DNA from: Channallabes apus
Taxonomy: Eukaryota > Chordata > Actinopteri > Siluriformes > Clariidae
NCBI GenBank assembly: GCA_030522415.1
Contig: CM060107.1
Span: 52,011,807 to 52,075,806, forward strand
DNA: 64,000 nucleotides
Direction of reading: 5' to 3'
Shown here in pieces: positions 1,815-64,000 of the stretch. Position 1 is the first letter of the stretch, and each line of letters starts with the position of its first letter. The position numbers and the translations under genes were made by a program. Under the pieces are notes generated by a model, which did not search any database, was not told the DNA's origin, and saw nothing but the letters and a program-made list of their open reading frames with translations.

Positions 1815-1859
1815 ACTCGTTCGGCGCGACCTCCGGAAGTTCCGCCCACCGGGTGTGTA

Positions 1860-11166: not shown

Positions 11167-11274
11167 CTGAAGAATGAACAAACATCAACATATTGCATTA
11201 CTGTTACAACATCAGATTAATCTGTCATGAGATTATCACTGAAGTAGCGTTGTGTACAAAAATGTGTCATTTCC

Positions 11275-21200: not shown

Positions 21201-24200
21201 CATACACGCACACACCTCTTAACACATCATACACGCACACACCTCTTAACACATCATACACGCACACACCTCTTAACACATCATACACGCACACACCTCT
21301 TAACACATCATACACACACACACCTCTTAACACATCATACACACACACACCTCTTAACACATCATACACACACACACCTCTTAACACATCATACACACAC
21401 ACACCTCTTAACACATCATACACACACACACCTCTTAACACATCATACACACACACCTCATAACACATCATACACGCACACACATCATACGCGCACACAC
21501 CTCTTAACACATCATACACACACACACCTCTTAACACATCATACACACACACACCTCTTAACACATCATACACACACACACACCTCTTAACACATCATAC
21601 GCGCACACACCTCATAACATCATACGCGCACACACCTCATAATGCATCATACGCGCACACACCTCATAACACATCATACGCGCACACACCTCATAACGCA
21701 TCATACGCACACACACCTATTAACACATCATACGCGCACACACCTCTTAACACATCATACACACACACCTCTTAACACATGTGTTATACGCACACACCTC
21801 TTAACACATCATACGCACACACCTCTTAACACATCATACGCACACACCTCTTAACACATCATACGCGCACACACCTCTTAACACATCATAAGCGCACACC
21901 TCTTAACACATCATACGCGCACACCTCTTAACACATCATACGCGCACACCTCTTAACACATCATACGCACACACCTCTTAACACATCATACGCACACACA
22001 CCTCTTAACACATCATACGCGCACACACCTCATACGCGCACACACCTCTTAACACATCATACACACACACACACCTCTTAACACATCATACACACACCTC
22101 TTAACACATCATACACACACACACACACCTCTTAACACATCATACACACACACCTCATAACGCATCATACGCGCACACACCTCTTAACACATCATACGCA
22201 CACACACCTCTTAACACATCATACGCACACACACCTCATATGCGCACACACCTCTTAACACATCATACACACACACACACACCTCTTAACACATCATACG
22301 CGCACACACCTCTTAACACATCATACGCACACACCTCTTAACACATCATACGCACACACACACACACCTCAACACATCATACGCACACACACACCTCTTA
22401 ACACATCATACGCACACACCCACCCCTTAACACATCATACGCACACACACACCTCTTAACACATCATACGCGCACACACACACCTCTTAACACATCATAC
22501 GCGCACACCTCTTAACACATCATACACGCACACCTCTTAACACATCATACGCACACACCTCTTAACACATCATACGCGCACACACCTCTTAACACATCAT
22601 ACGCGCACACACCTCTTAACACATCATACGCGCACACACCTCTTAACACATCATACACACACACACCTCTTAACACATCATACACGCACACACCTCATAA
22701 CACATCATACGCGCACACACCTCTTAACGCATCATACGCACACACACCTCTTAACACATCATACACACACACACCTCTTAACACATCATACACACACACA
22801 CACCTCTTAACACATCATACACACACACCTCTTAACACATGTGTTATACGCACACACCTCTTAACACATCATACGCACACACCTCTTAACACATCATACG
22901 CACACACCTCTTAACACATCATACGCGCACACACCTCTTAACACATCATACGCGCACACCTCTTAACACATCATACGCGCACACCTCTTAACACATCATA
23001 CGCGCACACCTCTTAACACATCATACGCGCACACCTCTTAACACATCATACGCGCACACCTCTTAACACATCATACGCGCACACCTCTTAACACATCATA
23101 CGCACACACCTCTTAACACATCATACGCACACACACCTCTTAACACATCATACGCGCACACACCTCATACGCGCACACACCTCTTAACACATCATACACA
23201 CACACACACCTCTTAACACATCATACACACACCTCTTAACACATCATACACACACACACACACCTCTTAACACATCATACACACACACCTCATAACGCAT
23301 CATACGCGCACACACCTCTTAACACATCATACGCACACACACCTCTTAACACATCATACGCACACACACCTCATATGCGCACACACCTCTTAACACATCA
23401 TACACACACACACACACCTCTTAACACATCATACGCGCACACACCTCTTAACACATCATACGCACACACCTCTTAACACATCATACGCACACACACACAC
23501 ACCTCAACACATCATACGCACACACACACCTCTTAACACATCATACGCACACACCCACCCCTTAACACATCATACGCACACACACACCTCTTAACACATC
23601 ATACGCGCACACACACACCTCTTAACACATCATACGCGCACACACACACCTCTTAACACATCATACGCGCACACCTCTTAACACATCATACACGCACACC
23701 TCTTAACACATCATACGCACACACCTCTTAACACATCATACGCGCACACACCTCTTAACACATCATACGCGCACACACCTCTTAACACATCATACGCGCA
23801 CACACCTCTTAACACATCATACACACACACACCTCTTAACACATCATACACGCACACACCTCATAACACATCATACGCGCACACACCTCTTAACGCATCA
23901 TACGCACACACACCTCTTAACACATCATACACACACACACCTCTTAACACATCATACACACACACACCTCTTAACACATCATACACACACACCTCATAAC
24001 ACATCATACACGCACACACATCATACGCGCACACACCTCTTAACACATCATACACACACACACCTCTTAACACATCATACGCGCACACACCTCATACGCG
24101 CACACACCTCTTAACACATCATACACACACACACCTCTTAACACATCATACACACACACACCTCTTAACACATCATACGCGCACACACCTCTTAACACAT

Positions 24201-25137
24201 CATACGCGCACACACCTCTTAACACATCATACGCACACACCTCTTAACACATCATACGCACACACCTCTTAACACATCATACGCACACACCTCTTAACAC
24301 ATCATACGCACACACACACACCTCAACACATCATACACACACACACACCTCTTAACACATCATACACACACACACACCTCTTAACGCATCATACGCGCAC
24401 ACACCTCTTAACGCATCATACGCGCACACACCTCTTAACACATCATACGCACACACCTCTTAACGCATCATACGCGCACACACCTCTTAACGCATCATAC
24501 GCGCACACACCTCTTAACGCATCATACGCGCACACACCTCTTAACGCATCATACGCACACACCTCTTAACACATCATACGCGCACACCTCTTAACGCATC
24601 ATACGCGCACACCTCTTAACACATCATACGCGCACACACCTCTTAACGCATCATACGCGCACACACCTCTTAACGCATCATACGCGCACACACCTCTTAA
24701 CGCATCATACGCGCACACACCTCTTAACGCATCATACGCGCACACACCTCTTAACGCATCATACGCGCACACACCTCTTAACGCATCATACGCGCACACA
24801 CCTCTTAACGCATCATACGCACACACCTCTTAACACATCATACGCGCACACCTCTTAACACATCATACGCGCACACCTCTTAACACATCATACGCGCACA
24901 CCTCTTAACACATCATACGCGCACACCTCTTAACACATCATACGCGCACACCTCTTAACACATCATACGCGCACACCTCTTAACACATCATACGCGCACA
25001 CCTCTTAACACATCATACACACACACACACACCTCTTAACACATGTGTTATACGCACACACCTCTTAACACATCATACGCACACACCTCTTAACACATCA
25101 TACGCGCACACACCTCTTAACACATCATACACACTCC
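12236..25137. repeat. 27-bp minisatellite array, about 12.9 kb
   Basis: The consensus unit, in plus orientation, is CGCGCACACACC followed by TCTTAACACATCATA (27 bp). Length divided by unit gives roughly 475 copies. Variants are 25-bp units (one CA fewer), units extended by CA dinucleotides, TCTT/TCAT swaps, CACG/TACG swaps and ACGCATC for ACACATC. The plus strand has almost no G outside CG, so the minus strand is strongly G+T rich. Because 27 is a multiple of three and the unit lacks stops in several frames, long artificial ORFs appear on both strands. Seed sequence resembling half units (ACACATATGATGCGGTACAC) is visible at 12200-12240. Confidence 0.97.
14470..20820. repeat. Higher-order duplication inside the minisatellite
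   Basis: The order of variant units in 14470-16680 is repeated in 18610-20820 with a constant offset of 4,140 bp, with only scattered substitutions. Paired marks include AAGCG versus ACGCG at 16146/20286 and the shared ACACAGACAC units. This is a block duplication of about 2.2 kb, not independent drift. Confidence 0.8.
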
Positions 25138-25400
25138 TCTTAGAACGTACAGGCTTAGAGCTTTTACTACCAACAGGGAGAGACACTAAAGACATGAGGG
25201 AGAAACAAACAGGAATAACAGGAAACAATAAGACACTAATCAGAGTACACAATACTCACAAACACAGGTAAACCCAAAGATACACTTAAAGACATCCAAC
25301 CCTGGAAACAAGCCTACAGAGCCAGTTTAACATAAATCAACAAAACAAAAAGCCCACCTGATAATATTAATACTCGACCCAGTTTCCCGGAGCTAACGGC

Positions 25401-25464: not shown

Positions 25465-25700
25465 TGCCTTCTGGGAAAATGGGTCTCTTAACAAAACTAC
25501 AAAACAAACATAGCCACAGTGCCCTCTAGGGGCAGTCCCTTACATAAACAGTACAAAACCACAGTAATAAACTGTATATCAAAATACAGCAGTTTACTGT
25601 AGTCTATTTCTACTGTACCAATACTGTAATAAAACAGCATTTTACTGGCAAAACTGCTGCCAGTAATTTACTGTAATTTTACATGAACATTTTTACAGTG

Positions 25701-25925
25701 CACCTTTAACACCACACTTGTAAACTCCTCCATCCTCTACAGTCAGGTGTGATATGAGCAGAGAGAGATTTCCTGAAGAGTGATCATTAACCAGCTGAAA
25801 TCTGTCTTTGTACTGATCACTCTCAGGAGATATCTCTATCCAGTTATTTACATTTGTTATGTATTTGCTCCATGTGAATGTCTCAGGTGTGGTGTGGAGG
25901 TCAGTGCAGGAGCAGGGCAGCAGTA
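25701..25925 (-). pseudogene. Unit 1 Ig exon 1, central piece
   Basis: The piece encodes the core of the first Ig V-type domain: [18 protein letters not shown], then [36 protein letters not shown] and VYKCGVK. The frame is intact but the piece is cut on both sides by CACTG-ended elements. Confidence 0.8.
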
Positions 25926-27481
25926 CACTGTAAAAAAAATTCTTGCTACTCCAACTAAAAAATTTCTAGTGACCTGTTGCATCTAAAATTTTTAGTTGGC
26001 TCAATTTAAGTTGTGTAAACTATTTTGTTTTTGCTGTGCTGATTACCTCTAAATGTACACACAAATTGAAATAAAACATTCTGTCAACTAAATGTTCTAT
26101 GCTGAATAAACATGCCTAGTTAGGCCAACAAGCAGTCTCAAATTGAAATATAATGTTGTGTCAATTAAATGTTCCAAGTTGACTGAAAGGTATATTTTGA
26201 ATTGGAAATTATGCTTGCATAATTATAAAATTAACATCTTAAAGTTTACTTGAGTAGGTTATTCACTGTAGCCACATTTCAAATAACATGACACATTCTT
26301 CTAAATTTGAATATTTTTTTTATGTAAACTTTAAACACCTGTTAAAGACTATCAACATTGATTAAGTGCAATCCAGCTACTCTTTCAACAAATAAACAAA
26401 TGCTGCATTGTTATAACAAAATATGCAAATAACATTCCAAAATGCAAGAATGAAACTGTGCCCTTAACATTCATGTTACAAAGCTTACTAATATCACACT
26501 CAGTCAAAACAGTATACTGGATAAATAGACTTCTGCTTTGAGGAACAAAACATACTGATATTTCTCAGTAAAAACGTGCAGTGGCTTATTTGAAAATAAA
26601 ATATTTGCTTTAACTCAGAAATGGTTTAAGATATAAAAAAAAAAAATGTTGTGAAATAATTTTGCCAAGCTCCAAGACTGTTTGCAGATGCAGTAAGCAC
26701 TGTTTCCCAGATATTCTCCCTAATACCTGAAATACAAAAAGATAAATATATGAATAACTAATTAAGTAACCGTTTGTAGTTCAAAACCATTAAAAATCCT
26801 ATACAAAAAATGTCCGTTTAGCCATTATAACCGTTTTCAGACACTATAAGGTTAATGAATGATGAAGTGAGAACATTAAGCTCCCTCAGTGCCGCACTAA
26901 CGCGCCGTCTTTTTCAAATAGCCTTTGAAATTATCAGTCATTAAAATGAATAAAATGTATGTAACGTAATTAAACTTTAGCGGTTTCATAGATTAACATT
27001 AATGTCAATGTACATACCATCTGAAAAAAAAATGCGTTAGGAGCTGAAACGAGTGCATTGCCAGATAACTACTGTAACACTCCAAATTATATAAATAAAC
27101 ACTCGAAAATATAATGTTCTAAAGCTTGCTGCTGGATAATATATATGTTATAAAGCTAAAATTGCTAATTACTTTGCAGGACAGTTAGTTTCCATGAAGT
27201 ACTCACCATTTCGGGAGGAAATAGCGGGAAGTTCGAAAATTCTGGAAGAACGCTTTTGCAGAGGTCCCTCTTGTTCGTCCAACATAAAATTGTTTGTGTG
27301 CAGTTAAATGTTTCATGAACACAGTTTTATTCGTTGCCTCGATGAAACTTTCTTAGTTGAGTAATGAAATTTATACAATCATTGAGAAAACATATTTTTC
27401 TTTTTTGACACCAGCATTATATTAGCCCAACATATATTTCTTTGTTCCAACAACTATTTTCAGGATTTATTTTTTACAGTG
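25926..27481. mobile_element. Second CACTG-ended element inside the same Ig exon
   Basis: It starts CACTGTAAAAAAAATT and ends ATTTTTTACAGTG, flanked by TA (25924-25925, 27482-27483). Unit 3 has the uninterrupted CAGCAGTACTGAG empty site. The 1.55-kb interior is AT-rich with no convincing transposase; the GTTGACTGAAAGG and CCAACAACTATTT stretches look like subterminal repeats. Confidence 0.7.
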
Positions 27482-30314: not shown

Positions 30315-31051
30315 TTAAGTATTGTCATACCTCCACTGCTGTGGCTTTGTTGACTCTCTTATAATGGCAATTCTGTTGGCAACAAAGGTTTTAAAATGAA
30401 GTTTTTCGTTGTCAATATATCTCAGAATGGTTGTACTGTCAGTCGAAAATATAGAGTCCAGCAACTCCATTTCCAATTGACCTTTCAACATTTTGTCATT
30501 GTTCACAGCAACCACTGCTGCAGTCAATTCCATTCGCGGAATAGTGGTTTGTTTCAGGGGGGCTACACGTGAATTCCCCATCATAAAGGCACAATGTGTG
30601 AGTCCATCAGCATTTACCAACTTGAGGTATGAGACAACTCCGTATCCCATCTCACTTGCGTCCGAAAAGTGATGAAGTCGTGCTGTAGTTGTAATTCCAA
30701 AGTTAACTGGTTTTATGCATCTTGCCACACTGAACTTGCATAGTTGATGTAACTCTTGTAGCCAGGCTTTCCATCTTTTTACGAACTGTTCAGGGATGTC
30801 GGCATCCCACATGAGTTTTTCTTTGCACAACTGCTGCATTAAGATCTTGGCTGGCAGTATGACAGATGCAAGGAAACCCAAGGGGTCATAGATTGAACTA
30901 GATTCCTAATAATTGACAAGATTCCTCTTCTAGTCACAGGTTGGTCCTTTAAACTAATCTTAAACTTGAACATGTCTGAATTGATACACCACAACACCCC
31001 TAGAGCTCTCTCGACAGGAAGTGCATCTTTACTCAAATCCAAGTCTCTCAT
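30315..31051 (-). pseudogene. BEL/Pao RNase H region
   Basis: Two overlapping frames contain the Pao-type signature: FLASVILPAKILMQQLCKEK, HHFSDASEMGYGVVSYLKL, RVAPLKQTTIPRMELTAAVV and FSTDSTTILRYIDN. The frameshift lies between 30839 and 30900. Family membership is clear, but the enzyme cannot be made. Confidence 0.85.
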
Positions 31052-31159
31052 GTATTTGATTCTTTCACTCTCAGGAACATAAGTCAGTAGGGCGCGACTA
31101 TTACTTGCCCACTTGGTGAGGTTGAACCCTCCACTTGCACAAAGGTGGGTGAGGTTGTT

Positions 31160-31585
31160 CTATAAAGCAACTGCATGATCATGGCTCGAAACAGACTTCA
31201 AACAGTCGTCTACATAAAAGTTCTTACGTCCTGTGTTGACTGACTCAACAGGTGCATTGCTGCGGTTTTCTTCTGCTGTTCTCCTAAAGGCAAAGTTGGC
31301 AACACTTGGAGACGATTTTGCACCGAACAGATGAACGAGCATCTTGTACTCGACCAAGTCTTGATTTACGCCTCCATTCGGCCACCGTAGGAAGTGCAGT
31401 AAATCTGTGTCTTTTTCCGGAACTCTCACCTGATAATACATGGCTTCCACATCTGCCATCATAGCAACTTCCTCTTGTCTGAAGCGTGTGAGTACTCCAA
31501 TGAGTGAATTTGTCAAGTCTGGTCCTTGTAGGAGCTCACTATTTAATGATACTCCCTGATAGCTGGCAGCACAGTCAAAAACCAC
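31160..31585 (-). pseudogene. BEL/Pao reverse transcriptase
   Basis: Contains [20 protein letters not shown], the [14 protein letters not shown] block, LHFLRW and the catalytic YVDD at 31205-31216. The N-terminal part (NFMNDMIEKGHAVKVP) is separated by a shift/deletion near 31600. It is a remnant of the element's polyprotein. Confidence 0.85.
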
Positions 31586-31745
31586 TCTTAGCTTTTTCTT
31601 CTTGTCGACTTAAGTGAGGTGTAGGGACCTTGACTGCATGACCCTTTTCAATCATGTCGTTCATGAAGTTTGAATACTCCTCGTGAAAGGAGAGGTTATT
31701 CTTAAATTTCCATTTGAGATTTAGTGCGCGCTGTGTGGCTGTCCC

Positions 31746-32870
31746 TTCTGACGTCCGATAGTTGTGTAGCTTTGGGGCCTTAATGTAGATACACGTTGGC
31801 TTTATTTCCCTCTTCAGTGGGTTTTTTCCCTCTTCAGTGGCTGGATACCGAAGGCTGGCGCTACCCGAGAGTACGAGTGCAGTGAGAGTCGTTCAGTGAT
31901 CACGTGGCTGTCCTTCACACGGTGATCAAGGGACTGCATTCAGTTTAGTTACTTTGAGGTCCCTGGTGAACGTTACATCGCCCAGCTTGCACGCCCCTCT
32001 TACACGTTTTTAGTGTCGCCGCCTGACTCTGTTCTGTGGCTCTCTAGCGCCAGACCAGACAATGAGCTGCACTCCCCACCCTGCTGTAATAATGCGGGGA
32101 AGCCAGCAATCCATTAGCAGAGACTGCTTTTCAACTGTGCCCATTTCCAGTGGCCCCTTTACACACCTGCAGAAGGGAAGTACCTACTGTAGTAACGACA
32201 GATGACAGATTGAGGCGCACGCTCATCACAGGTGAATGCCGTGACAGCTTCTTTAATTTATTATTAACTCTTTACAACAAATTGAGCAGTATGTATTAAT
32301 GATTATAACAAATGTATTAATAGTTATAACAAATGTATTAATGGTTATACATTTGCGAGGGCAGTTGTATAAATTGAATGTTGAGAACCATGTGTGTGTG
32401 TGTGTTTTGGACATCAGATGTTTCCACTGTAACATCCAGGCAAACTTCTAGAATGCCTTCATGATTTTACACAAAATTTGCATTCACACACAAACTCCAG
32501 CCAAAACATGCATTCACCAACACACACACTAACACAAACAATGATCACAAGTACTTTTATCTGGGGAAAAATGCAAAAAAAGTTCAGAAGGAATTTATCT
32601 TACAATGAATTTACTTTTATTTAGGACTATAAACTAAAGCCTACATGGTTTGAATGTTTTTATCTTGTGTTGCTCTGCAGTAATCTGAATACACTTCTAT
32701 TTTAGTGACACACCACCAAAGAGGCAAACTGCTAGAGGAGGAAGTGAGAGTGAACACACCACATGAGTAAGGAGTTCACAGAAGGGTGGATGTTTCTAGT
32801 AAACAGTGTACACACCCCAGTATCTCAAGCATCTTTAAAATGATTGGCTCTAAATCTTGTACGCTGTAAA
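31746..32870. repeat. Duplicated 1-kb block, copy 2
   Basis: Second copy of the block at 27644-28690, diverged by small indels including a duplicated TTTCCCTCTTCAGTGG. It directly abuts the BEL/Pao fragment, so the block probably moved with a local rearrangement. No gene was seen. Confidence 0.7.
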
Positions 32871-45400: not shown

Positions 45401-48400
45401 ACAGGCGCTGACTCTAATGGTTTGAAAGGGGTGTCACTTAGACCTTCGAGCATGATAGATAAATCCCACAAAGGGACCGTGGCTCTAGTGGGTGGCCCCA
45501 ACCGTTTAGCTCCATGAATGAAATGGGCAACTAAAGGGTGTTTTCCCACAGGAACCCCATCAATCAGAATGTGGCAGGCTGAGATAGCAGCTACGTATGT
45601 CCTGAGAGTACTAGGGCATAAGCCGAGGACAACTTTTCCCTCAGGAACTACAGCACTGAAACAATTCAGCAGTGGACTGAGTCTACCTGCTTCGTCATGC
45701 ACCAATTTTCAAATACATTCCATACATTCCATTTAGTTGGTCCCGTTCAGGGGCCAAACGTGAAGGTTCAAAAGCTCGGGCCGTGGATGAAATATTGTCC
45801 CCTGCGCCTGAGACATAAGATCCCTCCTCACTGGAGTCACCCATGGTGAGCCGTCGAGGAGCGATATTAGATCCGAGAACCACACTCTGGTCGGCCAACA
45901 GGGCGCTATCAATAAGAGGCGCAAACTCTGTTGACAGACCTTCACCAGGACTCCCGGGAGTAGAGCTATTGGAGGAAACGCATAAAGACGTAAATTGCAC
46001 CACGTATGGGCCATGGCGTCCAGACCCAGGGGAGCTGGACGAGTCAGAGAGTAGTAGAGGGGACATTGTGCTGTCTCTAGGGAGGCAAAGAGGTCCACCT
46101 CTGCTGTAAAGAATTTCTCCCCGATCAGACTGACTACTTCGGGATGGAGTCTCCATTCCCTGTGTGTCACAGCTTGTCTGGATAGTAAGTCTGCTCCCAC
46201 ATTCATATGCCCTGGAATGTAAATCACCCTGAGCGACAGGAACTTGTCCTGTGCCCAAAGCAGAACCTAGTGCGCTAGCTTGTTCAAGCGGCGCAAGCGC
46301 AGTTCGCTCTGCCGATTTATGTAGGAGACTACCGATGTGCTGTCCACCCGCACTAGAACATGGTAGCCTCTCAACTGCTGGAGGAAGTGCTGTAGGGCCA
46401 AAAATAGAGCCATCATTTCGAGGCAATTGATGTGCCATGCGAGAAGATGGCCTCTCCAGCTCCCTTGGGCTGGACGGCCATCCAAGACCGCACCCCAGCC
46501 GGTAAGGGAAGCGTCTGTCGTTAGTGTTTTGCGACGACAAGACGGACCTAGAGTGGGACCCAAAGTCAGAAACCGGAGTCTGAACCACATAGAAAGGGTA
46601 CGAAGTTCTTCGCGCGTAACCCTTATTTGCCTTTGGGGATTGGCCCTTGCATGAAATCCTCTGGCTCTTAGCCACAACTGAAAAGCTCTCATGTGCAAAA
46701 GGCCCAAAGGTATCACCGTTGACGCAGCTGCCATGAGGCCTAAACACTTTTGAAAGTGATGAACAGTCACTGTAGATGCGGTTGGCTTATTTCACTAGTT
46801 TTGACGCGTAGCTAATGTCTTAAAGTTTCACTCACATGACAGAAGTCCGATCTCTTTGTCTTTTGTCGTTTATTTATCAGCATCAAAGAATCAACACTTC
46901 ATACAGTCGTCTTGAGTAAATCCACTGTTATTACAGACACCAGTTGCTGCATCTTGCAAATCTCTGAGTTTTACAACAACCTGTTTGCTGTATCTTGTAG
47001 ATTACAATCTTGGCTTGGGTATCTAACAACACTCTTGTTGTTTCTTACTTTCCCAGCTTACGTTAGCTTATGGTTACAACAACCTCGTTGCTGTATTTTA
47101 CATTTCTAGCTTACCGGGAGCTCTCACTAGCTGACGGTCTAAAGCTTGTGTTTCCGTAGCCTTCCAAATCTATACTGAGCTTTCTAGCATATCACAGTCA
47201 CACAAATGCATGTAATAGTAGAATGACATCACAGACCAACCTACGATTATCAACTTATGATGCATGACTAAGAAATATAAAGCTTATGGCTGATGTAACA
47301 AACTTAATGCTTAATGCTTTACTAATGAATAGAACAAGGTAGAATAAATGAAATAACAGCAAGTAAAATAAAATAAAATAAACACAGCAACAAATTCATA
47401 ACAAGTGCGATATGGCACTTACATTCCAGCCCCTAATTGACAGGCATGGAGACTGACAATTACAATTTTGTGTTTTTTTTTTTTTTTTTTTTTTGATAAA
47501 GCAATGAAATCAAACATTCTTAACCTTCTAAAACGTTTTAAATCTTTTAAGTGTGTAATATTTATCTCAGGTGTTTACATTTGCATATCAAATTTCATAA
47601 CATATTACCACACATTTAACAGTCCATTTCACATGTGAGACACAGCTTGTCGATGGGTCTTTCCAGAGTGTTGGTCTTGGTTTTAACTAACACACGTTTC
47701 ACCAGTCCCCCTTTGTCGGGGAACACTTTCGTGATTCTTCTCATGACCCATGAATTTCTTGGAGATGACTCATCAGTTATTAAAACTATGTCTCAAATCG
47801 AAAGGTTTTTTTTGTTTTGAAACCACTTTTGCCGCCCCTGGAGCAAGGGCAAGTATTCACGTACCCATCGCTTCCAGAGCAGGTCTGATCGATGCTGGAT
47901 CTGCTTCTCCCTGCGACGTGCATAGATGACAAATCCAGGTGGCAGGTTTGGCTGTTTTTTCAGCAGCAGCAGGTGGTTTGGTGTCAGAGGTTCCATTTTA
48001 GGCGAGCAGCTGTTTCTTTTCACAGATGCCTTTCGTTTTTGCTGTGTGTGAATTCCCTGTTTGAATTCTGCTGCTGCTTTACCCTTTTGCAACGTGAGAA
48101 GTTCTTCCTTAAAATTTTGTCTTTGAGTGAACTTAATGATTTTGTTTTCTGCTCTTGTTAGGTCTTGCGCTTTTAGAGACTTGTGATTTTCTGTCTTTGG
48201 GTCATCTACTTGTGTTTTAACCCTTTCTGTTTTTTGTTTCAGCATGTCTCTGGTGCGAAGGATCCAGGCAGCGGATCCTTTTAACTTGTGCCAGTCAGAG
48301 TGATGATTAATCAGTTTACTCCCTGCGTCTGTGTCTGTGCATTTTGTAATGCTCACAATATTCACTAAAGCTGAGAGCTTAACTTCATCAGCATTTTTTC

Positions 48401-51400
48401 ATCAGCCATTTGCACTCTGCTTCTTTGAGGAGGGAGGGACCTTGGATCCAGTTGACATTTTTCATGAACTTTTCACAGGATGCCCCCCTGGAGGCAGAAT
48501 CAGCTGGATTTTGTGAGGTATTAACGTACCTCCATTGCTGTGGCTTGGTTGACTCTCTTATAATGGCGATTCTGTTGGCCACGAAGGTTTTAAAACGAAG
48601 TGTTTCGTTATCAATGTATCTCAAAACAGTTGTACTGTCAGTCCAGAACATAGAGTCCAGCAATTTCAATTCTAGCTGTTCTTTCAACATTTTGTCATTT
48701 TTTACGGCGACCAAATAAAATAAAATAAACACAACAACAAATTCATAACAAGTGCGATATGGCACTTACAGTCACTTTCTGGTCTAGCCAGATTTCCTTC
48801 AGGGTGTTGAGAATGGATTCGATACGAGCAGGGGACAGTTGTGCCCGCATAATGATCGAGTCCCATGTGACACCCAAGTACTGTATGTTGTCCTCTGAGC
48901 CAGAAAGAGAACACATTTCATGTTTCACTTTTTAGTGTTTCATAGATTTCATATGAAATCTTCTTCTCCTTTGTCTTTCGGCTGTTCCCTTTTAGGGGTC
49001 GCCACAGCGAATCATCTGTCTCCATCTAACCCCTTTCCTCTGCATCCTCTTCTCTCACACCAACTAACTTCATGTCCTCTCTCACTGCATCCATAAATCT
49101 CCTCTTTGGTCTTCCTCTAAACCTCCTGCCTGGCAGATCCAACCTCAGCATCCTTCTACCGATATGCTCACCATCTCTCCTATGAACATGTCCAAACCAC
49201 CTCAATCTGGCCTCTCTGACTTTATCTCCAAAACATCTCACATAGATTGTCCCTCTGATGAACTCATTCTTGATCCTATCCATCCTTGTCACTCCCAAGG
49301 AGAACCTCAACATCTTCAGCTCTGCTACCTCCAACTCTGCCTCTTGTCTTTTCTTCAGTGCCACTGTCTCTAAGCCGTAGAGCATCGCTGGTCTCGGCAC
49401 TGTCCTATACACCTTTATTTTCATTCTCGCCGATACTCTTTTATCGCACAACACACCTGAAACTTTTCTCCACCCATTCCAACCTGCCTGTACCAGCCTC
49501 TTCACCTCCTTTCCACACTCTCCATTGCTCTGGACCGTTGACCCTAAGTACTTAAAGTCCTGCACCTTCTTTACCACTGCTCCCTGTAGCCTCACTGTTC
49601 CTCTTGGGTTCCTCTCATTCACACATATGTACAGTATTCCGTCTTGCTGAGGCTAACCTTCATTCCTCTGCTTTCAAGAGCGTACCTCCACCTCTCCAAA
49701 TTTTCTTCCACCTGTTCCCTGCTCTCGCTACAAAGCACAATGTTATCTGCAAACATCATAGTCCATGGAGACTCCTGTCTAACCTCATCTGTCATCCTGT
49801 CCATCACCAGAGAAAAACAAAAAGGGGCTTAGGGCCGATCCTTGATGCAGACCCACCTCCACCTTGAACTCTTCTGTCACACCTACAGCACATCTCACCA
49901 CTGTCTTAGCGCCCTCATATATGTCCTGCACCACTCTAACATATTTCTATGCCACTCCAGACTTCCTCATACAACACCACAGCTCTTCTCTCGGCACCCT
50001 GTCGTATGCCTTCTCTAAATCTACAAAGGCACAATGCAACTCTTTATTACTTTCTCTGTAATAAATACTGCATCTGATGTACTCTTTCTAGGCATGAAAC
50101 CATATTGCTGCTCACAAATGCTCACCTCTGCCCTTAACCTAGCTTCCACTACTCTTTCCCACAGCTTCATTGTATGGCTCATTAGCTTTATGCCTCTGTA
50201 ATTGCCACACACCTCCCTTGTTCTTAAAAATCGGGACCAATACACTTCTCCTCCATTCTTCCTCCATAATATTTGCTACTTCCTGCACCACAACAGTCAT
50301 CAACTCCTTAAAGTACCCCTTCCATCTTCCCATCACCCTCCTGGCATCTGTCAGTACATTTCCATCTCTATCTTTAATCACTCTAACCTGCTGCACATCC
50401 TTCCCATCTCTAGCTTTCTGCCTCGCCAACCTGTACAGATCCACCTCACCCTCCTTACTGTCCAGCCTAGCATACAAGTCCTCATATGCTCTTTGTTTGG
50501 CCTTTGCCACCTCTAAATTCACCTTACACTGCATCTCCCTGTACTCCTGTCTACTCTCTTCAGTCCCACTTCTTCTTAGCTAGCCTCTTTCCCTGTATAC
50601 ACTCCTGGACTTCCTCATTCCACCACCAAGTCTCCTTGTCCACTTTTCCCTTACCTGATGATACACCAAGTACCTTCCTACCGGTCTCCCTGATCACATT
50701 GGCTGTAGTTGTCCAGTCAACTGAAAGCACCTCCTGACCACCCATAGCTTGTCTCAACTCCTCCCTAAAGACTACACAACATTCTTCCTTTCTCAGCTTC
50801 CACCACTTTGTCCTCTGCTCTGCTGTTGTCCTCTTCACCTTCCTCACCACCAGGGTTATTTTACACACCACCATTCTGTGTTGTCTGGTTACACTCTCCC
50901 CTACTAACACTTTGCAGTCACTAATCTCTTTCAGATTACAACGCCGACACAAGATGTAGTCCACCTGAGTGCTTCTGCCTCCACTCTTATGTCACCCAAT
51001 GTTCCTGCCTCTTCTGGAAGAAAGTATTTACTACTGCCATTTCACTCCTCTTTGCAAAGTCCACCACCATCTATCCTTCTACATTCCTGTCCTGAAGTCC
51101 AAACCTGCCCATCACATTTTCATTACCTCTGTTCCCTTCCCTAACATGTCCATTGAAGTCTGCACAAATCACCACTCTCTCACCTCTAGGGATGCTCTGC
51201 ATTACTTCATCTAACTCACTCCAGAATGTCTCCTTCTCTTCTAACTCACATCCTACCGGTGGGGCATAGCCACTAACAACATTGAACATCACCCCTTCAA
51301 TATCCAGCTTTAGACTCATCAACCTGTCTGATACTCTTTTCACCTCTAGAACATTCCTTACAAACTCCTCTTTCAGAATAACTCTCTGTTAAATATCTAC

Positions 51401-54400
51401 TCCATTTCTTTTCCTATCCACACCATGGTAGAACAATTTGAACCCTGATCCTAAGCTTCTAGCCTTGTTACCTTTCCACCTGGGCTCCTGGACACACAGG
51501 ATATCCACCTTCCTTCTCTGCATCATATCAACCAACTCTCTTGCCTTCCCTGTCATAGTCCCAACATTCAAAGTCCCTACGTTCACTCCTAAACTCTTGC
51601 CTTTCCTTTTCTCTCTGATTTCGAACACGCCTTCCTCCTCTCCTTTTTCGACCAACAGTAGCCCAATTTCCACCGGCACCCTGTAGGTCAACAGCACCGG
51701 TGGTGGTCGTTGTTATCCCGGGCCACGACCGATCCGGTATGGAATATTTCTGATTCGCATCATTGATTTGGCAAATGTTTTTACGTCGGATGCCCTTCCT
51801 GACACAACCCTCTGCATTTATCCAGACTTGGGACTGGCACAAGAAGACACTGGATTGCGCCCCCCCATGGTTGCATTTTATTTATATATGAAATAAACAT
51901 GCAGAAAATCTGCTACAGCTAAAAATAATACTGTAGTCTATTCTATCCAAATCATTCATAAACATTTCTAGATAGATAAATAGATAGATAGATAGCTAGT
52001 CTCACAAAAGTAAGTACACCCCTCACATTTCAGAAACCAATGTATTGTATGTTCCCACAGGACAATACTATAGAAATATAAATTATACTTTAGAGTAGTC
52101 AATATGTAGCTTGTATAACTGTACAGATTTACTGTCCTCTAACAATAACTCAACTTACATTTATATCTTATCCAGAGCAACTTACATTTTTTTAATCGCA
52201 TTACACATCTGAGCAGTTGGGGGTTAATGGCCTTGCTCAAGGCCCCAACAGTGGCAACTTGGAGGTTGTGGGGTTTGAACCTGGGATCCTCTGAACCTTA
52301 AGCCAATGCCTTAACCACTGAGCTACCCCTGATAGATGTACTCTACAATATAATCTAAGACTAACATGAGCTTTACTGTTTTACTGATTAACCATCTGGA
52401 TTATTATTTTGGATTATACAGTACAAAGAGGTCTCTGTTGATGAAAAGTAGTTTTAAGAGGCTATTCTGCTTTGGTAAATATCAAAGGAACTAATAACAA
52501 ATAAAGAAATGAACAGAAGTGAATGTGCTGTACTGATCATTACCTTTTTCAGAAGATGTTTCAGTGCGTGCAGTTGTTTTGTCACTAATCACTGGGGTTT
52601 GTGTTGTGACACCTACAGGAAGTGAAAGATCAGACAAAGTTAGTATTCACGCTGTGAGCTGATATTCTAATGTACTGACTAAGACTTTACATTCTGGTGT
52701 GTATCAGTGGTGTGTGAGGTACCTGGTTTAGGATTAGGTGAAGTTGTTATAATTACTGGAGTGGATGTTGAAGGTCTTGTTGGTGCATCTACAAGTAGAG
52801 AAAGGTTAAATTAGTTATAAATAAAGAATGTGATGTGCAATGAAGTGTATAAACTCTCTTTATTTTTATTTTTATTATTATGTTCTTTATTAAAGGCTAT
52901 CCAGGAATAATAGTAAGAAGAAAAAGTAGGTCAGAACACAATCTCAGTTTCTTAAATTATGTTTTTTATAATACACATTTTGTTATCCATGTGGGATAAA
53001 TATATACCACATTTTTTATTACAAGTGGCATTTCTTACATACTATAATGAGCTTCACATGTTCTTTAAATATAGAAAGTAATTTTACCTCTTACTACGAG
53101 TATGACATTTGCATCCATAGCATTATTGATCTCACACTTGTAATCTCCTCCATCCTCTACAGTCAGGTGTGATATGAGTAGAGAGAGATTTCCTGGATGA
53201 TGATCATTAATGAGCTGAACTCTGTCTGTGTAGCGATTTTTCTCATCCTTTGGGAAGATTTCTTTCTGATCAGATCCTTTAACAAAGATCCATGTGAGAG
53301 TGTGTGGTTTGGCTTGTAGTTGAAAGCAGGAGCAGGACAGAAGGACAGACTGACCCACGTATCCAGTCACACTCACTGTCTGCTGATTTAATGTGCAACC
53401 TGGAGAATGAATTCAATTCAATTCAATTCAGTTTTATTTGTATAGCGCTTTTAACAATTGACATTGTCTCAAAACAGCTTTACACAATCAAAAATTGAAT
53501 TGAATTGAATTGAATTGAATTAGTGTATAGTAGAATGAACAAACATCAACATGTTGCATTACTGTTACAACATCAATTTTCACTGAAGAAGCATTGTGTA
53601 TAAGCATGAGTCATTTACCTTCAATAGTGAGTCTGAAATGTTTGTATTCACTTTTTGTAAGATTACACCTGTAATCTCCTCCATCCTCTACAGTCAGGTG
53701 TGATATGAGCAGAGAGAGATTTCCTGAAGAGTGATCATTAACCAGCTGAAATCTGTCTTTGTACTGATCACTCTCAGGAGATATCTCTACCCAGTTATTT
53801 ACATTTGTGTATTTCCACCATGTGAATGTCCCAGGTGTGGTGTGGAGGTCAGTGCAGGAGCAGGGCAGCAGTACTGAGCCTCCTGTGTATGCAGTGATGG
53901 GTTTTACATCACTGTCTCCTTCCAGCCTGCAGCCTGTAGGAACACACCAGGTGATGATCTGTTAATGAGCAGTTCACCATCTGCAGCACAACTACACACA
54001 ACCTGTAACTCAAAAATTCACTTCACTAATGTCTTCAACTCTTTATTGAGTGCAAGGATATGGATGTGCTGAAGCAGCGAACAGTGCAAATATGGACTAC
54101 ATTTGGCTGAACAAAGCTTCAAACTAAAACTAGCTAACTACACTAGCCTGAGTTTAAATACTTAAAGTAAGATAAGATCACAAATATATTAATTATGAAC
54201 TAAATTATACAACTATAACAATAAAAATAAAACATGAATAGAAGGAGCATTATGAAAACAGAAAGTAAATAATAAAAAACAACAAGAACCAGTGCAACAC
54301 CAACACATTGGGTGGAGCTCTGTTCCTCGTGCTGCTTGACACAAGAAGTGCGGTAACACTACCCATTTCAGTGGTTTCACCAGTCGCCATGGAAACCACT

Positions 54401-59774: not shown

Positions 59775-60107
59775 TCTTACTGAGGACCCAAATACACATT
59801 AATCCAAAGAGAGAATTAGAGCAGAACACAGACTGACTGCACTGTCTCGTCTCATCATAATAAACACACTCTAAAGATCTAAAGTGTATTTGTGTGTTGT
59901 ACATCAGATGTTGCCATTTCAACAACCAATGAAACATAGTGAGAACAGTATGATTTTATACAAAACTGTATTATCCAGATGTTGTTTATCCAGAACTTTC
60001 ATGGTTCTGAACATTTAATTTATGCAAATCCTCTCCCAAATATATAACCAGATGCTTAATGTGCTTAATGTTTATAATAAATAAAAGAAGCATTCATTAC
60101 ATATAGG
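59775..60107. other. Upstream region of receptor unit 3
   Basis: The first about 100 bp is similar to the region upstream of unit 1's signal exon. No clear TATA box was found; an AATAAA-rich stretch lies at 60075-60085. Confidence 0.5.
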
Positions 60108-60192
60108 TGTCACGTTTGTTCCCCTTACTGTGTCTGTGTCGGCCGTGTTTGTGAGGCATGATCGCGGAGGCGAGCTGACGGTTAACAAAGTC

Positions 60193-60198
60193 TTTATT
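60193..60198 (-). terminator. LTR polyadenylation signal AATAAA
   Basis: AATAAA on minus in the context GAAAATAAAGACTTTG, about 90 bp downstream of the TATA box, as expected for an LTR R region. Confidence 0.65.
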
Positions 60199-60284
60199 TT
60201 CACAATAAACATAAACAAAACCACTCCAACACAAACTACGTAAATTAGACGGTTGCTAGACGCCTGACTGGAGTCCAGCCAGGC

Positions 60285-60292
60285 TATTTATA
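60285..60292 (-). promoter_or_regulatory. LTR TATA box
   Basis: TATAAATA on minus; predicted start about 60255. The identical box of the 5' LTR is at 63911-63918. Confidence 0.7.
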
Positions 60293-60326
60293 GCACTAAA
60301 CATCCACCAATAATCAAATTAACTTC

Positions 60327-60364
60327 CCTCGGTTCAGGTGAGCTTCTACGTCACCTGACCGAGG
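60327..60364. promoter_or_regulatory. U3 hairpin conserved with the solo LTR
   Basis: CCTCGGTTCAGGTGA and TCACCTGACCGAGG inverted arms. The solo LTR at 25426-25464 has the same arms with one change, although flanking sequence differs much more. Confidence 0.65.
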
Positions 60365-60470
60365 TGCAAACCGGGAAATGAAGTCAAACTTAACCAAAAT
60401 CAAACTACAACACAAAAGACAACGAAAATACTAATGGCGCTCTGGCGCCATCTAGTGGTTAACCGTTACA

Positions 60471-63400
60471 TTACCCCCCCTCTAAAAAATGCTCCTCCCG
60501 GAGCATCACCGGAGGCCCCGGACACCCAACCCAATGTTCTACCTTTAGCCTCCTATCCAGGAGGCTGGGTGACGGGGCTGGAGGCATGCTCTGCGGTTGC
60601 TGGGCTGGAAGCATGCTCGGCGGCTGCAGAGCTAGAGAAGCGCTCGGCTGCTGCTGAGCTGGAGAAGCGCTCGGCGGCTGCTGAGCTGGAGAAGCGCTCG
60701 GTTGCTGCTGAGCTGGAGAAGCGCTCGGCTGCTGCTGAGCTGGAGAAGCGCTCGGCGGCTGCTGAGCTGGAGAAGCGCTCGGCGGCTGCTGAGCTGGAGA
60801 AGCGCTCGGCTGCTGCTGAGCTGGAGAAGCGCTCGGCTGCTGCTGAGCTGGAGAAGCGCTCGGATGCTGCTGAGCTGGAAGCGTGCTCGGATGCTGCTGA
60901 GCTGGAAGCGTGCTCGGATGCTGCTGAGCTGGAAGCGTGCTCGGATGCTGCTGAGCTGGAAGCGTGCTCGGATGCTGCTGAGCTGGAAGCGTGCTCGGAT
61001 GCTGCTGAGCTGGAAGCGTGCTCGACGCAGGCGTTGGAGCGGTCACTGCGCTCGACGCAGGCGTTGGAGCGGTCACTGCGCTCGACGCAGGCGTTGGGGC
61101 GGTCACTGCGCTCGACGCCGGCGTTGGGGCGGTCACTGCGCTCGTAGACGGCGTTGGGGCGGTCACTGCGCTCGTAGACGGCGTGGGAGCGGTCACTGCG
61201 CTCGTAGACGGCGTGGGAGCGGTCACTGCGCTCGTAGACGGCGTGGGAGCGGTCACTGCGCTCGTAGACGGCGTGGGAGCGGTCACTGCGCTCGTAGACG
61301 GCGTGGGAGCGGTCACTGCGCTCGTAGACGGCGTGGGAGCGGTCACTGCGCTCGTAGACGGCGTGGGAGCGGTCACTGCGCTCGTAGACGGCGTGGGAGC
61401 GGTCACTGCGCTCGTAGACGACGTGGGAGCGGTCACTGCGCTCGTAGACGGCGTGGGAGCGGTCACTGCGCTCGTAGACGGCGTGGGAGCGGTCACTGCG
61501 CTCGTAGACGGCGTGGGAGCGGTCACTGCGCTCGACGGAGGCGTTGGAGCGCTCACTGCGCTCGACGGAGGCGTTGGAGCGCTCACTGCGCTCGACGGAG
61601 GCGTTGGAGCGCTCACTGCGCTCGACGGAGGCGTTGGCGCGCTCACTGCGCTCGACGGAGGCGTTGGAGCGCTCACTGCGCTCGACGACGGCCCTGGAGC
61701 GTGCAGTGCGCTCGACGACGGCCCTGGAGCGTGCACGACGCTCGACGACGGCCCTGGAGCGTGCACGACGCTCGACGACGGCTCTGGAGCGTGCACGACG
61801 CTCGACGACGGCTCTGGAGCGTGCACGACGCTCGACGACGGCTCGGGAGCGTGCAGTGCGCTCGACAGCGGCGTTGGAGCGTGCAGTGCGCTCGACACAG
61901 GCGTTGGAGCGTGCAGTGCGCTCGACAGCGGCGTTGGAGCGTGCAGTGCGCTCGACAGCGGCGTTGGAGCGCGCAGTGCGCTCGACAGCGGCGTTGGAGC
62001 GTGCAGTGCGCTCGACAGCGGCGTTGGAGCGTGCAGCGTGCTCGACGGCTCAACGTCGTCCTCAAAGCCGGGAGGCGGCGGCAGAACAGGTGCATGGGAC
62101 AGCGGCTGCTGGCGTGCTAGCTCGCTATCCTCGAAGCCGGGAGGCGGCAGCAGAACAGGTGCATGGGACAGCGGCTGTTGGCGTGCTAGCTCGCTATCCT
62201 CGAAGCCGGGAGGCGGCAGCAGAACAGGTGCATGGGACAGCGGCTGCTGGCGTGCTAGCTCGCTATCCTCGAAGCCGGGAGGCGGCGGCAGAACAGGTGC
62301 CTTGGTCGTTGGAGCTTGTGCAGGGCTCGACAGCGTTGGAGCGTGCACGGCGCTTTCCTGCAGCGTTGGAGAGTGCACGTCGCTCTCCTGCAACGTTGGA
62401 GCGTGCATGGTGCTCTCCTGCAGCGTTGGAGCGTGCACGGCGCTCTCCTGCAGCGTTGGAGCGTGCACGGCGCTCTCCTGCAGCGTTGGAGCGTGCACTG
62501 CGCTCGACTGCAGCGTTGGAGCGTGCACGGCGCTTTCCTGCAGCGTTGGAGCGTGCACGGCGCTCGCCTGCAGCCTGGGAGCGTGCACGGAGCTCGCCTG
62601 CAGCGTGGGAGCGTGCACGGAGCTCGTCTGCAGCGTGGGAGCGTGCACGGCGCTCTCCTGCAGCGTTGGAGCGTGCACGGCGCTCTCCTGCAGCGTTGGA
62701 GCGTGCACGGCGCTCTCCTGCAGCGTTGGAGCGTGCACGGCGCTCGCCTGCAGGGTGGGAGCGTGCACGGCGCTCGCCTGCAGCCTGGGAGCGTGCACGG
62801 AGCTCGCCTGCAGCGTGGGAGCGTGCACGGAGCTCGTCTGCAGCGTGGGAGCGTGCACGGCGCTCTCCTGCAGCGTTGGAGCGTGCACGGAGCTCGCCTG
62901 CAGCGTTGGAGCGTGCACGGCGCTCTCCTGCAGCGTTGGAGCGTGCACTGCGCTCAATGACGGCTCAACGTCGTTCTCAAAGCCGGGAGGCAGTGGTAAA
63001 ACGGGTGCGTCGGACAGCAGTTGTTGACACGCTGGCTCGCTGTCCTCAAAGCCGAAAGGCGGCGGTAAGACGGGTGCGTTGGACAGCAGCTGTTGACATG
63101 CTGGTTTGCTGTCCTCGAAGCTGGAAGGCGGCGGTAAGACGGGTGCGTCGGACAGCAGCTGTTGATACGCTAGCTCGCTGCTGAGTGTTGGCGAGGGGGG
63201 AGAAAGCTCCGAGCCCGCTTCGCGGTTCTCCTCGAAGTGGAGGATCATCTGCTGGAGCTCCTTTACATACTCCAGCATTTCACTCACCCGCTCCGGCTCC
63301 GGAATCCACCACATGAGCTCCTCCTCTCTCTGCTGCTGCTCTGCCTGGGGTTTTCTTTCCCCCTCGTCACCGCCGTACTTGGGCTTCCTCGCCCTTCTCT

Positions 63401-63860
63401 TCCGGCCAGTGCGGGGAACCACGTGACCCCGTGCCGCGTCGCCCCTGAATGGCGTCCGCCGAATGGCGAGCCTGCAGCCCTCCCAGCTTTGTGGTGTCTC
63501 TTTCTCTCTCTCCTCGCTGCTCTCTCGCAGGTGCTCCTGCTCCTCCAGCAATCTGTACTCGCAGCTGCGGTACATCTCCTCCTCGTCCTCTACCAGCCCG
63601 ATGTAGTCCCAGCCGTAGCACTCCTCGTCGCTGTCCCGCCAGTTCGCCAGCTCGGGCGAGATGGCTATCGCGCCCCCCCCAAAAAACTTCAGGAGGGGAT
63701 CCTCCGCCATGCCACTTTTTGGGTCTAGCAATCTGTCACGTTTGTTCCCCTTACTGTGTCTGTGTCGGCCGTGTTTGTGAGGCATGATCGCGGAGGCGAG
63801 CTGACGGTTAACAAAGTCTTTATTTTCACAATAAACATAAACAAAACCACTCCAACACAA
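60471..63860 (-). CDS. Repeat-rich ORF of the LTR element, unknown function
   Basis: 1,129 codons, uninterrupted. Possible starts are 63860 and 63785 (both inside the LTR, downstream of its TATA box) or 63710 (MAEDPLLKFFGGG, first in the internal region). The N-terminal 200 residues are unique: acidic (WRDSDEECYGWDY, EDEEEMYRSCEYR), then a basic cluster RTGRKRRARKPK that could be a nuclear signal, then a predicted helix VSEMLEYVKELQQMILHF. The rest is Pro/Ala/Ser-rich tandem repeats: 23-residue APVLPPPPGFEDSELARQQ units, decapeptides of the VHAPTLQESA, ALHAPGPSS, VSAPTPPSSA and VTAPTPSTSA types, and nonapeptides LPAQQHPST/SPAQQQPSA. The unique C-terminus GCPGPPVMLREEHFLEGG ends at a TAA touching the LTR. 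I do not recognise the family; a gag-like or domesticated-like role is speculation. Confidence 0.7.
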   Translation of the reverse strand: MCWSGFVYVYCENKDFVNRQLASAIMPHKHGRHRHSKGNKRDRLLDPKSGMAEDPLLKFFGGGAIAISPELANWRDSDEECYGWDYIGLVEDEEEMYRSCEYRLLEEQEHLRESSEEREKETPQSWEGCRLAIRRTPFRGDAARGHVVPRTGRKRRARKPKYGGDEGERKPQAEQQQREEELMWWIPEPERVSEMLEYVKELQQMILHFEENREAGSELSPPSPTLSSELAYQQLLSDAPVLPPPSSFEDSKPACQQLLSNAPVLPPPFGFEDSEPACQQLLSDAPVLPLPPGFENDVEPSLSAVHAPTLQESAVHAPTLQASSVHAPTLQESAVHAPTLQTSSVHAPTLQASSVHAPRLQASAVHAPTLQASAVHAPTLQESAVHAPTLQESAVHAPTLQESAVHAPTLQTSSVHAPTLQASSVHAPRLQASAVHAPTLQESAVHAPTLQSSAVHAPTLQESAVHAPTLQESAVHAPTLQESTMHAPTLQESDVHSPTLQESAVHAPTLSSPAQAPTTKAPVLPPPPGFEDSELARQQPLSHAPVLLPPPGFEDSELARQQPLSHAPVLLPPPGFEDSELARQQPLSHAPVLPPPPGFEDDVEPSSTLHAPTPLSSALHAPTPLSSALRAPTPLSSALHAPTPLSSALHAPTPVSSALHAPTPLSSALHAPEPSSSVVHAPEPSSSVVHAPEPSSSVVHAPGPSSSVVHAPGPSSSALHAPGPSSSAVSAPTPPSSAVSAPTPPSSAVSAPTPPSSAVSAPTPPSSAVSAPTPPSSAVTAPTPSTSAVTAPTPSTSAVTAPTPSTSAVTAPTSSTSAVTAPTPSTSAVTAPTPSTSAVTAPTPSTSAVTAPTPSTSAVTAPTPSTSAVTAPTPSTSAVTAPTPSTSAVTAPTPSTSAVTAPTPSTSAVTAPTPASSAVTAPTPASSAVTAPTPASSAVTAPTPASSTLPAQQHPSTLPAQQHPSTLPAQQHPSTLPAQQHPSTLPAQQHPSTLPAQQHPSASPAQQQPSASPAQQQPSASPAQQPPSASPAQQPPSASPAQQQPSASPAQQQPSASPAQQPPSASPAQQQPSASLALQPPSMLPAQQPQSMPPAPSPSLLDRRLKVEHWVGCPGPPVMLREEHFLEGG
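60600..61020 (-). repeat. 27-bp coding minisatellite
   Basis: About 15 units of 27 bp (plus CTGCTGAGCTGGAGAAGCGC and 7 more), encoding nine-residue Pro-Ala-Gln-Gln repeats. Confidence 0.9.
61021..62040 (-). repeat. 30-bp coding minisatellite, three variant blocks
   Basis: Exactly 34 units of 30 bp. 61021-61530 has 17 VTAPTPSTSA-type units, 61531-61680 five VSAPTPPSSA-type, and 61681-62040 twelve HAP-type. The period never slips. Confidence 0.92.
62041..62325 (-). repeat. 69-bp coding repeat, block 1
   Basis: Nearly four copies encoding APVLPPPPGFEDSELARQQ plus 4 residues. A related, more diverged block of three copies is at 62960-63185. Confidence 0.88.
62326..62955 (-). repeat. 30-bp coding minisatellite, block 2
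   Basis: 21 units of 30 bp encoding VHAPTLQESA and variants. A 300-bp segment of unit order (62545-62650 and 62745-62850) is itself duplicated. Confidence 0.9.
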
Positions 63861-64000
63861 ACTACGTAAATTAGACGGTTGCTAGACGCCTGACTGGAGT
63901 CCAGCCAGGCTATTTATAGCACTAAACATCCACCAATAATCAAATTAACTTCCCTCGGTTCAGGTGAGCTTCTACGTCACCTGACCGAGGTGCAAACCGG
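63734..64000 (-). repeat. 5' LTR, cut by window end
   Basis: 267 bases, all identical to the start of 60108-60470, including TATA box (63911-63918) and AATAAA. Confidence 0.9.

Follow-up and report, generated by a model that had tools for sequence, protein, structure and literature searches.

The window analysed here is a 64,000-nucleotide stretch of the Channallabes apus genome (GCA_030522415.1, contig CM060107.1; C4:52011807-52075806 in the searched assembly of 1.16 Gb and 93 contigs). Its right-hand end is occupied by a long terminal repeat (LTR) element on the minus strand, running from window position 60108 to the genome equivalent of about 64096, 96 bases beyond the window end. The element belongs to a real, young, multi-copy and non-autonomous LTR family that combines self-priming signals of the Tf1/sushi type with a maintained open reading frame (ORF) unlike Gag. 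Its features, with positions on the window, are as follows.

60103..60107, unstranded: target-site duplication ATAGG (CCTAT on the element strand; copy L051), with the second copy just past the window.
60108..60470, minus: 3′ LTR, 363 bp, TG...CA, from LTR comparison.
60471..60590, minus: likely structured RNA element adjoining the polypurine tract, also coding for the C-terminus; from folding and conservation among copies.
60471..63710, minus: single ORF of 1079 amino acids (aa), MAEDPLLKFF...EHFLEGG, from the ORF list with both ends confirmed.
60474..60483, minus: polypurine tract AGAGGGGGGG, read from the sequence and overlapping the codons for the last ORF residues.
60577..61024, minus: 27-nucleotide (nt; 9-aa) repeat array, PAQQ type, from repeat analysis.
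61020..62031, minus: 30-nt repeat array, SAVTAPTPS type, from repeat analysis.
62059..62300, minus: second 69-nt repeat array, from repeat analysis.
62307..62955, minus: 30-nt (10-aa) repeat array, SAVHAPTLQ type, bounds approximate.
62976..63180, minus: 69-nt (23-aa) repeat array, from repeat analysis.
63180..63710, minus: unique N-terminal region of about 175 aa with acidic and basic patches and a predicted helix at residues 139–164; from sequence and structure prediction.
63723..63731, minus: putative primer binding site TTGCTAGAC, separated from the LTR end by two bases (GA) and complementary to the presumed mRNA 5′ end.
63734..64000, minus: 5′ LTR, cut by the window end and running on to about 64096, from LTR comparison.
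63783..63785, minus: upstream in-frame ATG within the unique 5′ (U5) region (MPHKHGRHRHSK...); the ORF from 63785 is 1104 aa.
63819..63824, minus: AATAAA polyadenylation signal, read from the sequence.
63879..63887, minus: candidate self-primer GTCTAGCAA, the presumed first nine mRNA bases, 31 nt past the first T of the TATA box.
63911..63918, minus: TATA box TATAAATA, read from the sequence.

A first-pass annotation made from the letters alone had described identical LTRs over 267 bp, a polypurine tract and one frame filling the interior with no pol domain, and each of these observations stands. The 267 bp (60108-60374 and 63734-64000) are the part of the LTR that the window holds twice; compared in the genome, both LTRs are 363 bp long and 100% identical over positions 1–363. 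The polypurine tract lies directly against the left LTR, which in a minus-strand element is the 3′ one, and Pfam returned no pol domain for the interior. Its count of 1,129 codons started at a TTG inside the LTR and has to be shortened: the long frame is single, and from the ATG at 63710 it encodes 1079 aa. This ATG lies 23 bases past the 5′ LTR, and the TAA stop is the last codon ahead of the 3′ LTR. Together, the paired LTRs ending in TG...CA and the target-site duplication identify an LTR retrotransposon, and the TATA box, AATAAA signal, primer site and polypurine tract are ordered as expected along the minus strand. In 19 of 20 copies, the studied one included, the ORF has ahead of it a basic leader like the one starting at the U5 ATG (L057 is the exception). 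The repeat periods of the interior are, in order, 69, 30, 69, 30 and 27 nt, all multiples of three.

The same annotation had proposed a mobile LTR unit that spreads one repeat-built ORF, and the genome bears this out. The exact string of LTR end, primer site and ATGGCGG occurs 405 times (190 forward, 215 reverse), and a reversed-pattern control gave 0. Searching with the N-terminal 230 aa produced 4052 first-look candidates, of which the best 150 were scored and 151 matches reported; stops were present in 5 of the listed rows, which are the best-scoring ones and thus biased toward intact copies. Searching with the LTR yielded 2667 candidates, the best 40 of which were scored. We fetched 20 whole copies, the 20 top-scoring rows of the protein search, and located two LTRs in 19 of them; in L053 only the first 38–40 bases of the second were found. 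A perfect 5-bp target duplication flanks 17 of the 20, the studied copy included, with 17 different sequences, as found by a script that tried several candidate LTR ends per copy. Between the two LTRs of a copy, 32 of 7036 sites differ in all (19 copies, gaps uncounted; L053 was left out of the LTR ages because only 40 nt aligned), and 6 of the 19 pairs show no difference, so most insertions are recent. Between copies the delimited LTRs differ by 9.6% on average (171 pairs from 19 copies; L057 could not be delimited and was left out), which indicates that several lineages have been active. This value sits beside a proportion of synonymous differences (pS) of 6.9% between copies and presents no paradox; an apparent excess of LTR over synonymous change (17% against 3% at fourfold sites) was rejected, as flanking bases had inflated the LTR figure. 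In one copy, L061, three LTRs accompany two C-terminal motifs, as if by a nested or recombined insertion.

We then asked of the copies whether the frame is maintained. In the studied copy alone its openness is weak evidence, because the repeat periods (27, 30 and 69 nt) leave other frames of the repeat region open as well, up to 672 codons; it is the other copies that exclude chance. The frame runs uninterrupted from the N-terminus into the C-terminal motif in 16 of the 20 whole copies and is broken in L059, L060, L063 and L067, with L061 scored as intact as far as its first, nested LTR. The random stops across copies that the first-pass annotation had set against its own proposal were therefore not seen. 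A neutral simulation at 4.8% divergence, half the mean LTR difference, left 6.7% of sequences stop-free with a mean of 2.8 stops; it used substitutions only, with the 16 intact copies as starting sequences. When loci were picked by LTR rather than by ORF, 10 of 20 had a 5′ end, the studied copy included, and nine of these ten were open throughout the fetched DNA, about 490 codons (L018 stops at 410). The description of the protein as rapidly evolving holds for repeat number (ORFs of the 16 intact copies range from 558 to 1079 aa) and fails for part of the N-terminus, which is conserved. We also considered a low-complexity artefact. This is partly true of the repeat arrays, and for the element it is ruled out by the junctions, duplications and frames of the other copies.

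Selection on the encoded protein was assessed over about 170 N-terminal codons in 37 copies, counting changes found in two or more copies as shared and setting them against an expected 28%. Private changes numbered 19 synonymous, 50 non-synonymous and 2 stops (p 1.0). Within codons 37-157, inherited changes numbered 15 synonymous, 13 non-synonymous and 0 stops (p 0.005, an optimistic value as this interval was picked after the profile had been seen), and private changes 15, 41 and 1 (p 0.88). As judged over that chosen interval, codons 37-157 show purifying selection on inherited changes. Constraint on inherited changes together with neutrality after insertion is the pattern expected if source copies need the protein.

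The N-terminus occurs in two types. Two copies chosen by their LTRs (L008/L009 and L013/L014), whose LTRs are 91–92% identical to those of the studied copy, carry an N-terminus, type B, that matches the type A of the studied copy at 41% identity over 95 aa (E 1e-10 and 2e-9). They share its repeat style, C-terminus and 3′ RNA element. Between the types pS is 0.65, near saturation, and the proportion of non-synonymous differences (pN) is 0.43, both values depending on the alignment. LTRs this close joined to N-termini this distant point either to reassortment of LTR and N-terminus or to much faster divergence of the N-terminus.

We found no recognisable relative of the ORF product. Pfam gave no family above its cut-off (the lone match, PF25296 'Decapeptide', has E 0.023), and for the type B N-terminus only weak coiled-coil-type matches below the cut-off, the best with E 0.038. 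No sequence relative was found among solved structures or in collections of viral and prokaryote genomes. No CCHC or D[ST]G motif occurs in the 20 ORFs, each read to its first stop. By sequence, then, the element differs both from gag-only elements, whose ORF has a capsid domain, a zinc knuckle or similarity to Gag, and from chromoviral pol-bearing ones, as Pfam detected neither reverse transcriptase, integrase nor chromodomain within it.

The second set of evidence concerns priming. The primer site TTGCTAGAC is complementary to the nine-base LTR motif GTCTAGCAA, which begins 31 bases past the first T of the TATA box, in the zone where an mRNA is expected to start; from the TATA box we infer that transcription starts at GTCTAGCAA. 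We aligned 34 of 37 copies (alignment A1), dropping L027, whose segment is 309 nt against 183–205 in the others, and L044 and L049, whose segments are identical to others. The primer site of L027 carries GAACGCCAGAC, and its inclusion would have added two unpaired cells. Across the 34 copies the 9-bp helix between LTR and primer site is paired in 304 of 306 cells. Two of its nine pairs change on both sides (A-U in 24 copies against G-C in 10, and A-U in 30 against U-A in 3), whereas slid controls gave 0 double changes. For the helix together with the inverted repeat upstream of it, the covariation score was 0.106 against 0.057 in shuffles and the number of double-changed cells was 17 against 3.7, each above all 500 shuffles; the copies are related, so these cells are not independent events. 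A 9-bp helix with compensatory changes, at an mRNA start deduced from the TATA box, is the self-primer of the Tf1/sushi replication type. Copying of the primer sequence into the primer site during a self-primed cycle would be expected to produce such covariation. Passages in two papers describe priming by the mRNA 5′ segment as demonstrated for Tf1; for Tj1, the Tcn1 clade and the Tf1/sushi elements of vertebrates they give it as inferred or predicted (PMC4600332, PMC6317226). Priming by a tRNA was rejected by eye, without a tRNA comparison, as no TGG-type site adjoins the LTR end.

The inverted repeat occupies 63888-63910 (minus strand), from the TATA box to the presumed start, and is found in 34 of 34 copies (A1 columns 1–23). 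It mostly reads GCCTGGCTGGACTCCAGTCAGGC; in 4 of the 34 it reads GCCTGGCTGAAGTTCAGTCAGGC, a symmetric change, and it could be a DNA palindrome or an RNA hairpin.

Candidate helpers were sought through the Pfam family SH3_Tf2-1, which gave 8234 first-look candidates in the genome. Among the best 150, which were scored, many lie in open frames about 1157 aa long, and the frames of a few measure 1406–1443 aa. So many chromodomain frames of equal length (about 1157 aa) are what a genome with recent sushi-type activity would hold. The chromodomain motif is kept at four of the five 3′ ends read; the fifth, L074, has a stop within it. Two chromodomain elements were read at both ends (L072/L077/L079 and L075/L076/L078), with 99.8% identity between the paired LTRs of the first (453 bases) and 99.6% between those of the second (516 bases). 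In both, the LTR is followed by GA and then by AGCCCGGAC, which is complementary to GTCCGGGCT in the element's own LTR; the studied element has the matching layout, with LTR, GA and then TTGCTAGAC, paired with GTCTAGCAA. The junction of polypurine tract and LTR reads GGGGGTAA/TGTCAC in the two chromodomain elements and GGGGGTAA/TGTAAC in the studied one (slash marks the junction). The common layout of LTR, GA and nine nucleotides and the common GGGGGTAA/TG junction indicate that the element has the replication signals of the Tf1/sushi group. By our reading of their sequences, the Gags of the two chromodomain elements contain a capsid-like region, a CCHC knuckle and a protease-like DSG; when both N-terminal types were aligned to these Gags, the scores fell within the shuffled range.

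At the opposite end of the element, the sequence nearest the polypurine tract is, as far as the copies tell, conserved as nucleotide rather than as protein. The mean p-distance there is 0.022 (alignment columns 4–97, 20 copies), and the last residues are read in differing frames among copies, as REEHFLEGG or RRSIFGRGG. The type B copy L009 differs from the 20 copies by a p-distance of 0.051, with a variable stretch (0.096) past the first hairpin. The last 120 nt of the studied copy fold with a minimum free energy of −58.3 kcal/mol (z −3.27), and 0 of 200 shuffles were as stable. This 3′ end is likely a cis-acting element that functions as RNA.

The rest of the window holds other repeats and parts of host genes. 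A 13-kb minisatellite array at 12200-25200, mostly of 27-nt units, has long frames on both strands, and one of its families comprises 235 matching stretches. Degraded gypsy-type pol pieces at 1-2460 (minus strand) run off the window start; their frames resemble protease, reverse transcriptase and integrase by eye, and Pfam gave no match for them at 0.001. A Pao/BEL-type fragment lies at 30318-31892 (minus strand; PF05380, E 6.6e-42) and a second, recognised by repeat similarity to it, at 48391-48765 (minus strand). Four similar immunoglobulin exons of V-set-like type, grouped by repeat families, lie on the minus strand at 10844-11197, 25696-25965, 53068-53412 and 53614-53961; the V-set was tested for the last only (E 1.1e-12), and the four apparently belong to a duplicated host gene family.

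We consider it somewhat probable that the element is a non-autonomous, self-primed retrotransposon that is mobilised in trans and encodes a non-Gag protein of its own. RNA polymerase II would start at the base right after the TATA-proximal inverted repeat, and the first nine mRNA bases, folded back onto a primer site that lies two bases past U5, would prime synthesis of the minus DNA strand. A chromodomain element of the sushi group would most likely supply reverse transcriptase and integrase in trans. The ORF product would consist of a basic leader, an N-terminal core that turns from acidic to basic, a helix, and a tail of Pro/Ser/Ala/Thr repeats that is long and varies in length, and would most likely act in cis on its own RNA, in packaging by helper particles or entry into them. 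The last ~100 nt would be kept mainly as RNA structure beside the polypurine tract. A bolder form, which we regard as possible but doubtful, is a retrotransposon satellite devoid of gag and pol, whose own repeat-tailed, RNA-binding non-Gag protein exploits, or competes for, particles made by unrelated self-priming helpers; the A and B N-termini would be interchangeable modules behind one LTR.

Several observations weigh against an encoded, selected protein and a sushi-group helper. All 20 whole copies and 30 of the 37 N-terminal sequences were drawn from the protein search. Over the full ~170 codons, shared changes numbered 22 synonymous, 33 non-synonymous and 0 stops (p 0.07), and codons 1-36 appear unconstrained (5:16). 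Of the two unique ends, where the first-pass annotation had proposed comparing copies, the N-terminus has a mean pairwise pN/pS of 0.43 in 19 protein-chosen copies and a weaker constraint, 0.59–0.91, in 7 LTR-chosen copies compared with the studied one, so that over the whole N-terminus constraint is at most moderate; at the C-terminus (29 codons, 18 copies) pN, at 0.030, exceeds pS, at 0.005, and that end is therefore not kept as protein. AlphaFold2 run on the single sequence gave a poor model (mean predicted local distance difference test score 45.7), with the helix at 139–164 as its best part (about 65–80). As for priming, with helix and inverted repeat counted together, three pairs with double changes were matched by 52 of 500 shuffles and the further pair types by 498 of 500. 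The first-pass annotation had suggested looking for an autonomous relative with this LTR, and such a pol-bearing sibling did not emerge from two strict genome patterns, which would miss variant primer sites: 0 matches were obtained for the chromodomain motif 131–191 nt upstream of GGTAATGTAACGG (an exact pattern, run without a positive control) and 0 for the LTR end plus primer site where the next four bases are all unlike GCGG (a pattern validated by its positive form, with 405 matches). The LTR ends, TGTAACG...CGTGACA, fit by eye the terminal motif of the fish clade rGmr1 (TGTNANR...CGTNACA) at both ends and that of Sushi (TGTYANR...CNTNACA) at the 3′ end only, the motifs being those given in part of one survey (PMC3601003); as rGmr1 is the better fit, the helper may come from another Ty3/gypsy clade.

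These points bear unequally on the alternatives. The frame might be open for the sake of the RNA, a translatable interior dodging nonsense-mediated decay or setting a packageable length, with the amino acids hardly mattering. The weak constraint in codons 1-36 and overall, the pN/pS of the LTR-chosen copies, the excess of pN at the C-terminus, the wide variation in repeat number and the largely open other repeat frames all agree with this, as does the finding that, at two of the three periods, repeat units show no excess of differences at third codon positions. We nevertheless think it rather unlikely, since codons 37-157 are depleted of inherited non-synonymous changes, even allowing for how that interval was chosen, and the two N-terminal types still align despite near-saturated synonymous sites. 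That the ORF is instead a Gag diverged past recognition, in a gag-only element like BHIKHARI, we judge less likely still. Its single long ORF does begin right past the primer site, as in the two autonomous elements, and the type A helix and the sub-cut-off coiled-coil-type matches of type B can be compared with the N-terminal coiled coil described for Bik-1 Gag in part of that report (PMC10996621); against this stand the missing Pfam capsid match, the absence of CCHC from the 20 ORFs and the shuffled-range scores against the chromodomain Gags. A captured host gene, recently amplified as a passenger with no role in transposition, would suit an ORF that has no detectable relation to the compared Gags and a primer site that lies outside the ORF. 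It is very improbable, because 16 of 20 frames are open despite the 9.6% LTR difference, unlike the simulated passenger, and because 405 occurrences of the exact string formed by LTR end and primer site continue into ATGGCGG, and the strict exclusion form gave 0 matches, with no other interior seen behind it at that stringency.

Non-autonomous and gag-only LTR elements are already known, and the part that would be new here is a non-Gag ORF with signs of selection; among open-licence full texts, we recognised no description of the element. A family of at least 405 junctions with a non-Gag ORF that is mostly open in the sample suggests that a retrotransposon parasite can evolve a protein of its own, in the manner of satellite viruses. 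With its young copies, covarying primer and two kinds of N-terminus, the family lends itself to experimental test.

Non-autonomous LTR elements are generally viewed as non-coding or gag-carrying. Terminal-repeat retrotransposons in miniature (TRIM) and large retrotransposon derivatives (LARD) are non-coding and TR-GAG elements carry gag, all of them being non-autonomous with LTRs, a primer site and a polypurine tract. Unlike these, the studied element has an unrelated ORF that bears signs of selection, one frame being kept in 16 of 20 copies. Maize Bs1 is an LTR element whose interior holds sequence other than gag-pol; by contrast, the family described here has at least 405 junctions and keeps its frame in most copies read. 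Gag-only LTR elements with a single ORF are documented in passages of two reports (PMC10996621, PMC9341512). Among them, BHIKHARI-1 and BHIKHARI-2 are described in the available part of one, a preprint, as non-autonomous endogenous retroviruses of zebrafish whose single ORF is a Gag with a capsid domain, and they indicate that an element of this sort can carry an ORF of consequence for its host (PMC10996621). Like BHIKHARI as described there, ours is a non-autonomous LTR family of young age whose members have a single long ORF and lack both pol and env; unlike BHIKHARI, it has no Gag feature that we could find, appears to be self-primed and has an ORF made mostly of tandem repeats. With the rGmr1 (Gmr1-like) clade of fish gypsy elements it shares, by eye, the LTR terminal motif, and it differs from that clade in having no pol; its 5′ LTR terminus TGTAACG departs from the Sushi motif TGTYANR (both motifs as in the survey excerpt, PMC3601003). 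It is unlike members of the Tf1/sushi group of Ty3/gypsy elements in that no gag, protease, reverse transcriptase, integrase or chromodomain was found in it, and like them, as passages in PMC4600332 and PMC6317226 describe them, in that its presumed mRNA 5′ end is complementary to the primer site next to the LTR.

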